Shown here: piece after piece, positions 8,699 to 11,050 of the stretch | Layout of the letters: each line of letters opens with the position of its first letter | How positions within the stretch are numbered: the first letter of the stretch is position 1 | Assembly: GCA_003105305.1 (NCBI GenBank) | Contig: PQAQ01000067.1 | Coordinates: 23,255-35,628, forward strand | Source: Candidatus Methylomirabilota bacterium | GTDB lineage: Bacteria; Methylomirabilota; Methylomirabilia; Methylomirabilales; Methylomirabilaceae | Direction: 5' to 3' | Length of the DNA stretch: 12,374 nucleotides | Translations under genes and position numbers: made by a program | Notes under the pieces: model-generated | Database searches by the model: none | The model's input: the letters and a program-made list of their open reading frames with translations, nothing else | Told to the model about the DNA's origin: nothing

Positions 8699-8989
8699 TC
8701 ATGCGACTCCTTCGATCGCCACAATGTCAGTGTTCGCGCTCTGACGGCGCAGACCTCTCGCCTCGCGATACTCCGGCGATTCCAACCACTGCTTCGCGTG
8801 GCCGACATCCGGAAACTCCAGGATCACCAGTCGCGTGGGAGACCAATCGCCTTCAAGGGTTTCCGTTCGACCCCCACGCGCCAGATACTTGCCGCCATAC
8901 ACAGCAAGGGCCGGCGCTGCCGCTTGCTTGTACCGCTCAAAACCGACCGGATCGGTCACCTCAATATCGAGAATTATATAGGCTGGCAT
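8699..8989 (-). CDS. DUF1330 family protein
   Basis: This small 96-aa cytoplasmic protein matches DUF1330, a dimeric ferredoxin-like alpha/beta-barrel family. The start MPAYIILDIEVTDPVGFERYK, the central YGGKYLARGGRTETLEGDW and the end RLVILEFPDVGHAKQWLESPEY are diagnostic. No enzymatic role is established for the family. A purine-rich leader with AAGG 4 nt before the ATG, and GGAG further up, serves as the ribosome site. It stands alone: 221 bp follow the oxidase-like gene upstream, and the next gene downstream (radC) begins 291 bp away. Confidence 0.9.
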   Translation of the reverse strand: MPAYIILDIEVTDPVGFERYKQAAAPALAVYGGKYLARGGRTETLEGDWSPTRLVILEFPDVGHAKQWLESPEYREARGLRRQSANTDIVAIEGVA

Positions 8990-9210: not shown

Positions 9211-9795
9211 TCAGCCAGCGGAAGGCTCGCCTGGAGTTTCAGGCTGTGGGAGCCACGTGATGGCCGGAAGCCCATCAATACTGGTGGCGTTCCTTGTAAG
9301 CTGATACTGCCGGAGGCCATCGGCGCCCTTCCGATCGGACCACTCGATCAGCTCAGATCGATCTCGCTCGAATCGAAACATCGGAACACCAAAGCCGCAC
9401 GACACCGAGATGCGGCGAACCGACATGCGAATAATCGCCCGGTCGGGCGGATAGACCGGAAAGAGCGATCGGAGTTGCCGGTATGCAGCACTCATGGGTT
9501 CCAATACTTCGCCGATACCGTGAAGGCGCACGACCTTCGGTCGTCCCTCCAGCGCGCACAACATGAGAACAATCCGGCCGTTTTCTTTCAGATGTCCGAT
9601 CGTTTCTGTCCCGCTGCCGATGTAATCCAGATACGCGACCTGGCGCGGACCGAGAATCCTCAGTGTATCCAATCCCTTCGGCGATACGTTGACATGGCCG
9701 CTCGCATCGAGCGGGGCCGTGGCCACGAAGAACAGCCGCTGTGCTTCAATGAATGTGCGAAGTCCATCATCGATTTCGTCGTAGACTTTACCCAT
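9211..9795 (-). CDS. Pyridoxamine 5'-phosphate oxidase-like (split-barrel flavin-binding) protein
   Basis: This 194-aa protein matches a well-defined subgroup of the PNPOx-like split-barrel family that begins MGKVYDEIDDGLRTFIEAQRLFFVATAPL. It contains HVNVSPKGLDTLRIL, VAYLDYIGSGTETIGHLKENGRIVLMLCA and, near the end, SIDGLPAI. Relatives bind FMN or a similar flavin; the substrate of this subgroup is unknown. Only the fold, not a vitamin B6 reaction, should be assumed. Its ATG overlaps the stop of mazF by one base (TAATG), and I see no clear ribosome site, so its translation probably depends on the toxin gene. It is thus the distal gene of the MazEF transcript unless it has an internal promoter. 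Confidence 0.88.
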   Translation of the reverse strand: MGKVYDEIDDGLRTFIEAQRLFFVATAPLDASGHVNVSPKGLDTLRILGPRQVAYLDYIGSGTETIGHLKENGRIVLMLCALEGRPKVVRLHGIGEVLEPMSAAYRQLRSLFPVYPPDRAIIRMSVRRISVSCGFGVPMFRFERDRSELIEWSDRKGADGLRQYQLTRNATSIDGLPAITWLPQPETPGEPSAG

Positions 9796-10139
9796 TACCG
9801 ACCCAACACCACATCGATACCAGCCAGGATCAGTTCGAACTTTGTGGCCGGAAGTTTTCCGACCCGTTCCGTGAGGTACGTCTTATCGATGGTCACTAAC
9901 TGCGAGACGTTCGCGACCGATTCCTTGGTGAGCCCGGTCACGCGTGGCAAAAGGATCACGTTGCCGGGTGCGGCCGCCCATTTGAGATTACTGGTCAACG
10001 GAACGCAGACGACGGTTGCGATGCGGCTGCGGTTCAACCCGTCTCCCTGGACCACCACAACGGGACGCCGAACACCGTGGCCGGAGCCGATAGGCGCCGG
10101 AGAATCCGCCCACCAGACCTCGCCCTGCGCAATCACCAC
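9795..10139 (-). CDS. mazF: Type II toxin, MazF/PemK family endoribonuclease
   Basis: The 114-aa protein has the MazF/PemK layout: QGEVWWADSPAP at the N-terminus, the RRPVVVVQ strand with R25, and the VVCVPLTSN strand with T49. R25 and T49 correspond to the catalytic Arg and Thr of the family. MazF toxins cleave mRNA at short sequence sites when free of antitoxin. Two adjacent GTG codons (10139 and 10136) could start it; the second forms a GTGA overlap with the antitoxin stop. In either case translation is coupled to the antitoxin. The PNPOx-like gene follows with a one-base overlap. Confidence 0.92.
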   Translation of the reverse strand: MVIAQGEVWWADSPAPIGSGHGVRRPVVVVQGDGLNRSRIATVVCVPLTSNLKWAAAPGNVILLPRVTGLTKESVANVSQLVTIDKTYLTERVGKLPATKFELILAGIDVVLGR

Positions 10140-10372
10140 TCGTTACGCTCCAGTGTTTCGCGCGACGCCGCAACCGCGAACTCGTCCGCAGCACCCTCCC
10201 CCAGTTCGGCGCACACGCGATCCATCGCCTCGGTGACTTCCTCCGGAGTATGGCGTGCGACGTACTCCCGAAGCGCCTCGCTGAACATCCGACTGCGAGA
10301 CATGTGCGCTCGCTTAGCCAACCGCTCGGCCTGTTTGAAAATCTCATCGGGGACAGATACAGCAGTTTTCAT
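10133..10372 (-). CDS. mazE: Type II antitoxin, MazE-like ribbon-helix-helix protein
   Basis: This is a 79-aa antitoxin. The N-terminal MKTAVSVPDEIFKQAERLAKRAHMSRSRMFSEALREYV is a classical ribbon-helix-helix DNA-binding domain (about residues 1-40). The acidic C-terminal half (EEVTEAMDRVCAELGEG...ERNEW) should wrap and neutralise MazF. The ATG at 10372 begins the conserved strand, so the start is firm. There is no Shine-Dalgarno site. The -10 hexamer lies only 6 nt upstream, predicting a leaderless transcript. It probably autorepresses its own promoter. Confidence 0.9.
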   Translation of the reverse strand: MKTAVSVPDEIFKQAERLAKRAHMSRSRMFSEALREYVARHTPEEVTEAMDRVCAELGEGAADEFAVAASRETLERNEW

Positions 10373-10378
10373 ACCGGA

Positions 10379-10407
10379 AGTATAACCTCAGGTGTCGTCA
10401 GCGTCAA
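10379..10407 (-). promoter_or_regulatory. Promoter of mazEF, predicted leaderless
   Basis: TTGACG (10402-10407) and TATACT (10379-10384) are separated by exactly 17 bp, close to the sigma70 consensus. Only 6 nt separate TATACT from the mazE ATG, so the expected start of transcription is the A of the ATG. A small palindrome ACCT-N-AGGT (10385-10393) directly abuts the -10 box and may be part of the autoregulatory operator. The -35 box starts 9 bp past the higA stop. Confidence 0.75.
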
Positions 10408-10415
10408 GCTGTCCG

Positions 10416-10721
10416 TTAGTGGGCCTCGGCATAGACTCGAACCTCCCGCTCGAGTCTTTTTCCCACTTGGTCCTCTTCCACATCCAGATCGTACTGAGCC
10501 TGCAGTCCAAGCCAGAATTCGGGGGAGGTCTGGAAATACCGGCCGAGTCGCAGGGCGGTATTGGCCGTAATGCCTCTCTTACCCAGGACGATTTCATTGA
10601 TGCGGCGAGGATCGACTCCGATGTCCAACGCCAGACGATGCTGACTCAGACTAAGGGGCTTCAAAAACTCTTCTTCGAGCACCTCACCCGGATGCACCGG
10701 CTCCAGTTTCCTACCAGCCAT
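10416..10721 (-). CDS. higA: Type II antitoxin, HigA family helix-turn-helix protein
   Basis: This 101-aa antitoxin begins with the HigA signature PVHPGEVLEEEFLKPL (about residues 8-23). An XRE-type helix-turn-helix follows (LSLSQHRLALDIGVDPRRINEIVLGKRGI, about 23-51), then the FWLGLQAQYDLD segment typical of HigA/VapI proteins. It should neutralise HigB and repress the operon. AGGAGG (10730-10735) overlaps the higB stop codon and lies 8 nt before the ATG, so, unlike higB, it has a normal ribosome site. Gene order is toxin then antitoxin, as is standard for higBA. Confidence 0.93.
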   Translation of the reverse strand: MAGRKLEPVHPGEVLEEEFLKPLSLSQHRLALDIGVDPRRINEIVLGKRGITANTALRLGRYFQTSPEFWLGLQAQYDLDVEEDQVGKRLEREVRVYAEAH

Positions 10722-10733
10722 AACCCCTACCTC

Positions 10734-11015
10734 CTAATGATAGTCAGCAATCTCAACCTCATAGGCGTCGTCGTCCCGCCATTCAAAGCAGACTCGCCAC
10801 TGGTCATTGACCCGGATCGAGTACTGCCCGGCCCGATCGCCTCTCAACTTCTCAAGCCGATTCCCAGGTGGAGAGCGCAGATCTTGAATTGACTTGGCAT
10901 TGTTGATCATCCTGAGTTTTCGCAGCGCTGCCTGCTGCACTTCCGCGGGGAGCCTCTTGTCAAACTCCCGCAGATAGACGCCTTCGGTCTGCTCGTTCGC
11001 AAAGGATTTGATCAC
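10734..11015 (-). CDS. higB: Type II toxin, HigB/RelE-superfamily mRNA interferase
   Basis: This 93-aa toxin has the HigB pattern: the N-terminal IKSFANEQTEGVYLREFDKRLPAEV, the central DLRSPPGNRLEKLRGDRAGQYSIRVNDQWRVCFEW (about residues 45-79) and the terminal DAYEVEIADYH. Family members cleave mRNA on the ribosome. The start is the GTG at 11015, since the family conservation begins at the following Ile-Lys-Ser-Phe. TATACT lies 6 nt before this GTG and no Shine-Dalgarno site exists, so the transcript is predicted to be leaderless. Confidence 0.92.
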   Translation of the reverse strand: MIKSFANEQTEGVYLREFDKRLPAEVQQAALRKLRMINNAKSIQDLRSPPGNRLEKLRGDRAGQYSIRVNDQWRVCFEWRDDDAYEVEIADYH

Positions 11016-11021
11016 AGAAGA

Positions 11022-11050
11022 AGTATATAGCGTCGTCCGCTAAGCGTCAA
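11022..11050 (-). promoter_or_regulatory. Promoter of higBA, predicted leaderless
   Basis: TTGACG (11045-11050), a 17-bp spacer and TATACT (11022-11027) repeat the architecture of the mazEF promoter. The shared sequence extends to TTGACGCT at the -35 side and TATACTTC at the -10 side. The GTG start codon is 6 nt beyond TATACT, so transcription should begin at, or within a base of, the start codon. Confidence 0.75.
11028..11042. promoter_or_regulatory. Candidate HigA operator palindrome
   Basis: TAGCG-N5-CGCTA is a perfect inverted repeat that occupies the spacer between the -10 and -35 boxes of the higBA promoter. Binding there by HigA would block RNA polymerase. A 9-bp copy of its right side (CGTCCGCTA) recurs at 11132-11140, next to a GGACG/CGTCC palindrome (11125-11136). 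The operator function is inferred. Confidence 0.55.

Follow-up and report, generated by a model that had tools for sequence, protein, structure and literature searches.

Matching close-set promoters predict leaderless mRNAs for neighbouring higBA and mazEF operons in a Methylomirabilota bacterium

Two toxin-antitoxin operons of different families, higBA and mazEF, lie side by side in the genome of a methane-oxidising Methylomirabilota bacterium and raise the question of why they carry nearly the same promoter at the same short distance from their first start codon, and whether that distance means that both mRNAs begin on the start codon itself. The original prediction, made on the window (the whole stretch of 12,374 nt analysed here, from a draft assembly of 2.1 Mb that is 80% complete), read both transcripts as leaderless and offered either promoter copying between the modules or a shared regulatory logic as the reason. 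The question touches on a more general one, for which there is, to our knowledge, no single accepted answer: what keeps a toxin-first module from killing the cell that carries it.

Two type II modules with matching promoters

Both operons lie on the minus strand. In the first, a gene at 10734..11015, with a GTG start at 11015, encodes a HigB-like RelE-fold toxin (PF05015, E 1.8e-20, 73.6 bits against a cut-off of 27) and is followed directly, after a gap of 12 nt, by a HigA-family antitoxin gene (10416..10721; TIGR02607, E 4.1e-31, 106.6 bits against a cut-off of 47.7); by this gene content it is predicted to be a toxin-first HigBA type II module. Only 43 nt separate the end of higA from the start of mazE (10133..10372, ATG at 10372), whose product matches the ribbon-helix-helix family PF01402 (E 9.1e-6, 25.9 bits, above the cut-off). 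The mazF/pemK toxin gene that follows (9795..10139; PF02452, E 1.5e-22, 80.3 bits, above the cut-off) has a GTG start that overlaps the end of mazE, and this order, a PemK/MazF toxin after a ribbon-helix-helix antitoxin, is the one expected of a putative RHH-type MazEF module. Directly 3' of mazF lies a PNPOx-like gene (9211-9795) and after it a DUF1330 gene (8699-8989), both on the minus strand; judged by eye, the gene order after mazEF is the same in the Methylomirabilis genome G013 (L157).

Upstream of each operon stands the same arrangement, TTGACG-N17-TATACT-N6-start, with exact spacings. In the higBA promoter, the best sigma70-like promoter found there by scoring (L003), the -35 element TTGACG (11045..11050, minus) is separated by a 17-nt spacer from the -10 element TATACT (11022..11027, minus), which lies 6 nt before the start codon. 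The mazEF promoter, identified by motif match and promoter scoring, has its -35 element TTGACG at 10402..10407 and its -10 element TATACT at 10379..10384 (both minus), again 6 nt before the ATG. The near-identity originally claimed for the two promoters, including the 17-bp spacing and the 6 nt to the start, is exact: TTGACGCT-N15-TATACTTC-N4-RTG matches the window twice with no mismatch, at 10370-10407 and 11013-11050, both on the minus strand, and gave no match in 200 dinucleotide shuffles of the window. When the 2.1 Mb assembly was searched for the double motif, a check suggested together with the claim, TTGACGCT-N12..18-TATACTTC was found in the higB and mazE promoters only, and a reversed-pattern control gave no match.

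Start codons and Shine-Dalgarno sites

The open frame continues for only 8 codons above the higB GTG and for only 5 above the mazE ATG, and neither extension contains an ATG, GTG or TTG. In 79 relatives of higB the aligned first residue is a start codon throughout (ATG in 47, GTG in 32), and the N-termini of the mazE kin read M-K-T-A or M-K-I-A. Because upstream starts are absent and the aligned starts and N-termini are kept in relatives, the assigned start codons stand; conserved N-termini that would move them elsewhere, which had been named as a way for the prediction to fail, were not encountered in either family.

The contrast drawn earlier between higB and mazE starts that lack a Shine-Dalgarno sequence and a perfect AGGAGG at higA was confirmed, with one nuance. 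The higA site (10730..10735, minus) overlaps the higB stop codon and lies 8 nt before the higA ATG. No Shine-Dalgarno site is present at the usual spacing before the higB GTG, and mazE has only GAGGT, a partial match 12 nt before its ATG that is kept in 2 of the 15 mazE kin, window included. Among the higB relatives, a match of at least 4 nt precedes higB in 10/79 loci and higA in 46/74 (five loci have no recognisable higA); the latter count is likely too low, as the start of higA is probably wrongly placed in some loci, L056 being one example. Three of the 15 mazE kin have a match of this length.

Predicted transcription starts

A -10 box usually ends 6 nt before the transcription start site. 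This rule can be calibrated on Synechocystis ssr5020, which encodes a HigB that is 52.7% identical to the window HigB. Table 2 of PMC4963859 gives its transcription start as 24162, with 19 nt from there to the start codon, and the gene begins at 24181 in the sequence record. The distance from its TATACT to the published start is exactly 6 nt, and the rule therefore holds in a HigB homologue; our promoter scoring had placed this promoter at 5 nt, which the published start contradicts. With its 19-nt leader the ssr5020 mRNA is not leaderless, though among homologues whose starts are published it is the closest.

Applied to the window, where both -10 boxes lie 6 nt from the start codon, the rule would place position +1 on the G of the higB GTG and on the A of the mazE ATG. 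Leaderless transcription of higB and mazE, as originally predicted, is thus likely and well supported by comparison, by the published start of ssr5020 as well as by a layout that is kept in both families. No sign of special RNA structure was seen where the two transcripts are predicted to begin (z 0.0 and -0.7).

Conservation of the layout

The 79 higB relatives derive from the best 80 of 525 found (53-72% identity) and so represent close relatives only; L086, whose match starts at residue 13, was left out. In each, up to 75 nt of upstream sequence were scored for the best sigma70-like -35/-10 pair. It lay 5-8 nt before the higB start in 64/79 relatives, and at exactly 6 nt in 32/79, compared with 9, 9 and 8 of 79 in three shuffles; for higA, the second gene, a best promoter at 5-8 nt was found in 3/74. 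By taxon group, as taken from record titles that are mostly those of metagenome bins, the 5-8 nt promoter is present in Chloroflexota (18/20), Gemmatimonadota (6/6), Deltaproteobacteria/Syntrophia (6/6), Nitrospirota (3/3), Verrucomicrobiota (3/3), other Pseudomonadota (10/12), Actinomycetota (4/4), Planctomycetota (3/5), Acidobacteriota (2/3), Bacillota (1/2), others (6/9) and loci with no group label (2/4), and in neither of two Cyanobacteriota. Only two pairs of the 79 upstream stretches are at least 80% alike. In a second set of higB kin, reduced from 30 loci to 17 with a match from residue 1-3, window included, and to 16 by removal of L032, which has too little upstream DNA, 15/16 have their best promoter at 5-8 nt, again counting the window.

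A TANNNT motif at 5-7 nt was observed in 57/79 higB relatives, 10/16 higB kin and all 15 mazE kin. Before the mazE ATG it stands at exactly 6 nt in 14/15, window included, and at 7 nt in the remaining one, while a TTGAC -35 is kept in 5/15, window included. The mazE kin exclude two partial matches (L164, L166) and the weaker ribbon-helix-helix matches L043-L055, many of which are preceded by Shine-Dalgarno-like stretches.

The genomic background was taken from the congener G006, in which 349 ORFs in 400 kb gave 213 genes with an upstream gap of at least 50 nt. TANNNT stands at 5-7 nt in 5/213 of these and the best promoter at 5-8 nt in 24/213 and at 6 nt in 3/213. Each ORF was taken to begin at its first possible start codon, which is wrong in some cases, and for this reason a second count admitted any start in the first 30 codons, giving TANNNT at 5-7 nt in 19/213 and at 6 nt in 5/213. 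The idea that a leaderless layout is the norm of the genus was rejected, since TANNNT at exactly 6 nt occurs in 0/213 genes by the first count.

Operator-like repeats

Each promoter also contains an inverted repeat of its own. In the higBA spacer, TAGCG-N5-CGCTA (11028..11042, minus) is an exact match to the HigA-operator-like pattern TARCG-N5-CGYTA. The form with a gap of 3 to 7 nt, TARCG-N3..7-CGYTA, has exact matches in 42/79 higB relatives, where shuffles average 0.1, and 56/79 match if one mismatch is allowed (shuffle average 1.4). Where the repeat and a 5-8 nt promoter occur together (48 relatives), the gap is 5 nt in 47, and the repeat lies between -35 and -10 in 32. This repeat is likely the HigA operator, as predicted from its pattern and position.

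The candidate MazE operator, ATAC-N5-GTAT (10371..10383, minus), overlaps the -10 box and the start codon of mazE. GTTATACT and GTATG recur in the mazE kin, and the repeat is likely the site that MazE would bind. The higB-type repeat TARCG-N5-CGYTA is absent from the window mazE promoter even at two mismatches, a tolerance at which it appears in 3/10 mazE kin (shuffles mean 1.7). No operator common to both promoters was found, of the kind by which a single shared regulon would be recognised.

The layout in other toxin-first operons

For BrnT (the family that we take DUF497 to be), HicA and PhdYefM, the 30 best loci per family were collected from the window's phylum, with starts, including those of the following ORFs, picked by script. 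BrnT is encoded first in its operon; one locus gave no start, and of the other 29, 19 have their best promoter at 5-8 nt (13 of them at exactly 6 nt) and 17 have TANNNT at 5-7 nt. A Shine-Dalgarno match of at least 4 nt precedes BrnT in 10/29 loci versus 24/29 for the following ORFs. In L178, L190, L196 and L197, palindromes such as TATGCAC...GTGCATA in the brnT promoter reach the -10 box before the start codon and are possibly BrnA operators.

Among the HicA genes TANNNT stands at exactly 6 nt in 7/30, all of them among nine with a HicB-like ORF behind (checked with Pfam in three of the nine, and by resemblance in the rest). Toxin-first HicA thus have the motif at this position in 7/9 cases versus 0/21 for other HicA, the nine having a KV[GR] N-terminus and having been grouped after the sequences were seen; a Shine-Dalgarno match is present in two of the nine and in eight of their following ORFs. 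In the toxin-first members of this set (L229-L258), TANNNT at 6 nt mostly accompanies low-scoring -35 boxes. A leaderless layout for HicA as a whole was rejected, as a same-strand ORF ends near the HicA start in 24/30, three of the nine KV[GR] HicA being among these 24. PhdYefM antitoxin genes, assumed to be first in their operons, have TANNNT at 5-7 nt in 0/30 (4/30 counting any candidate start), the best promoter at 5-8 nt in 3/30 and a Shine-Dalgarno site in 23/30. Methylomirabilis genomes are rich in toxin-antitoxin genes, with matches per genome reaching 12 for BrnT (G013), 18 for HicA (G005) and 14 for PhdYefM (G008 and G010).

A plasmid set of 16 loci, together with ssr5020, was chosen for spread of host from 100 plasmid matches listed. 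For mazE the plasmids gave a single match, which is outside this set. In the 16, a Shine-Dalgarno match precedes one toxin and all 16 antitoxins, and a 5-8 nt promoter is present in 8 (BrnT 3/7, HigB 5/9, the HigB being of wider identity); the IncT HigB of Providencia has no such promoter. The ssr5020 locus has no Shine-Dalgarno match on either the toxin or the antitoxin gene.

We tentatively suggest, at a little under an even chance, that toxin-first operons of many phyla share a device in which a leaderless toxin gene devoid of a Shine-Dalgarno site precedes an antitoxin gene that bears one, which would explain antitoxin excess. The pattern is a tendency and not a law: mazE is antitoxin-first yet leaderless by prediction, and half of the plasmid loci depart from the layout. 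Its breadth over HigB, BrnT and toxin-first HicA operons may be new, as titles and abstracts of the open-licence literature yielded no cross-phylum account of leaderless toxin-first operons, though one may have been published elsewhere; the excerpts of PMC4803016, PMC3968373, PMC9098466 and PMC6918082 do not bear on leaderless promoters of toxin-antitoxin genes.

Discussion

The explanation that we consider best, and probable, is that higBA and mazEF are unremarkable type II operons whose separate, close-set sigma70-type promoters have converged on the same form, and that in higB the leaderless start damps the toxin. Layout, conservation, Shine-Dalgarno contrast and differing repeats were computed; the transcription starts, the repression and the dosage role are what we infer from them. 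Transcription would begin with the first base of the start codon or no more than a base or two away from it. Bound between the two promoter elements, HigA would repress its own operon; once the promoter is free, polymerase would start on the GTG, and the toxin would be weakly translated from a leaderless mRNA, while AGGAGG would give higA stronger translation, offsetting the unfavourable toxin-first order and keeping the antitoxin in excess. In mazEF, bound MazE would lie over both the -10 box and the start codon, and translation of the overlapping mazF is probably coupled to that of mazE. The layout cannot serve toxin damping alone, because mazE is antitoxin-first and yet leaderless in the same prediction, and the dosage idea leaves this unexplained.

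That one module's promoter was copied from its neighbour by recombination or gene conversion, as had been proposed, now seems very improbable. The hexamers and flanking bases are indeed identical between the two; among the 15 mazE kin a TTGACG -35 occurs only in the window genome and G006, the two genomes in which higA was found beside mazE, and the window higB spacer agrees at 8/17 positions with that of G006 mazE, more than with the window's own mazE. The window's two spacers, however, match at only 5/17 and the 40 nt above their -35 boxes at 12/40, and the operator-like repeats differ. Moreover, the window mazE spacer is closer to the mazE spacers of G006 (13/17), G009 (10/17) and G013 (9/17; 5/17 in G004), and the mazE promoter is kept in G013, G009 and G004, where tblastn found no higA around mazE in stretches of 5-6 kb each; a further nine mazE kin, with shorter loci, likewise gave no tblastn match to higA. 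The two promoters probably reached their likeness independently, and convergence on the sigma70 consensus with a common 6-nt geometry suffices to account for it. The paired arrangement, to which significance had been attached, likewise looks like local adjacency and not a system, since a higA copy stands beside mazE in G006 and none was found in the G013, G009 and G004 stretches. The G006 locus (L156, G006:C1:1258800-1263500) carries two copies of higA. One is interrupted by a frameshift and ends 47 nt before mazE; the other is complete and lies about 1.3 kb further up, together with a truncated higB that is matched over residues 32-93. As judged from its sequence, the locus is a duplicated, partly broken version of the window tandem.

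The other alternatives to convergent leaderless promoters with a damped toxin concern the mRNAs themselves. It is unlikely that the transcripts are not leaderless, with starts further down or up or readthrough from upstream supplying the main mRNA: start choice varies by promoter, and mazE, 43 nt after higA, could be read through, but ssr5020, by its published start, conforms exactly to the 6-nt rule, and the open frames of higB and mazE offer no start codon further upstream. We give a larger, though still minor, share of belief to the short distance being a by-product of compact autorepressed promoters, in which the leader shrank and had no translational role. The mazE operator-like repeat itself overlaps the ATG, and mazE would be leaderless without being toxin-first, both as such a by-product would have it. 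PhdYefM antitoxins also belong to autoregulated operons, yet in the same phylum they mostly retain leaders and Shine-Dalgarno sites, with no TANNNT at 5-7 nt in the 30 loci. A shared stress logic, by which undissociated 70S ribosomes or ribosomes lacking the anti-Shine-Dalgarno, perhaps after MazF cleavage, would translate both modules, is distinctly unlikely. In M. tuberculosis many toxin-antitoxin modules do have leaderless mRNAs, and leaderless mRNAs increase during starvation, according to excerpts of PMC3898074; the layout, however, is kept separately in each family (for higB, in hosts of many phyla), so that a specialised-ribosome logic is not needed, higA mostly retains its Shine-Dalgarno site, and two studies, as cited in a passage of the review PMC7167474, failed to find MazF-made specialised ribosomes. 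Of the earlier interpretation, the leaderless part is thus supported; promoter copying finds no support in the divergent spacers and operators, and a ribosome logic is not needed where each layout is kept within its family.

If the combination of a leaderless toxin and a Shine-Dalgarno-bearing antitoxin is widespread, sequence could reveal both the order of the genes and their mode of translation, and start-site maps would be the place to examine how broad the toxin-first tendency is. The locus also carries a warning that promoter similarity of neighbouring modules need not mean copying or co-regulation.

Comparison with known systems

Leaderless toxin-antitoxin transcripts, for which precedent had been claimed, are known, and they include toxin-first ones. 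Excerpts of PMC4963859 give three leaderless toxin-first pairs of Synechocystis 6803, namely sll1651, sll1965 (DUF497) and ssl7039-ssl7038, the last a RelE with gp49 domain described as a HigB subclass, in which ssl7039 comes first at a start-codon distance of 0; its authors remark that all three leaderless loci have the reverse gene order. Like the window higBA, these pairs have the toxin gene first, and their published transcription start lies on the start codon (PMC4963859). They differ in being three loci of one cyanobacterium, with no promoter comparison across phyla noted in those excerpts, and Synechocystis also has counter-cases, the HigB ssr5020 with its 19-nt leader and the DUF497 gene ssr0757 with a leader of 45 nt (PMC4963859).

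Of 37 toxin-antitoxin pairs of Mycobacterium tuberculosis that have a primary start, 32 are leaderless according to the part of PMC3898074 concerned. As predicted for the window, the first genes are leaderless, and TANNNT is centred 7-12 bp before the start site; unlike the window, a quarter of all genes there are leaderless, with no conserved -35 (PMC3898074), while the layout is rare in the Methylomirabilis sample. No tie of leaderless genes to gene order is noted in the same part of that paper. PaaR2 of the paaR2-paaA2-parE2 operon in E. coli O157 is, as described in excerpts of PMC8630535, a leaderless first gene supported by 5' RACE and mass spectrometry, but it is a separate regulator on a cryptic prophage and neither toxin nor antitoxin. 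In Pseudomonas higBA/graTA, the palindromes bound by HigA and GraA are printed as TTAAC GTTAA and TAACGTTA in passages of PMC6987408 and PMC6393540, whereas the arms of the window repeat have a 5-nt gap; the HigA-family antitoxin there binds a promoter palindrome of TAAC/GTTA type, to which the window repeat is related.
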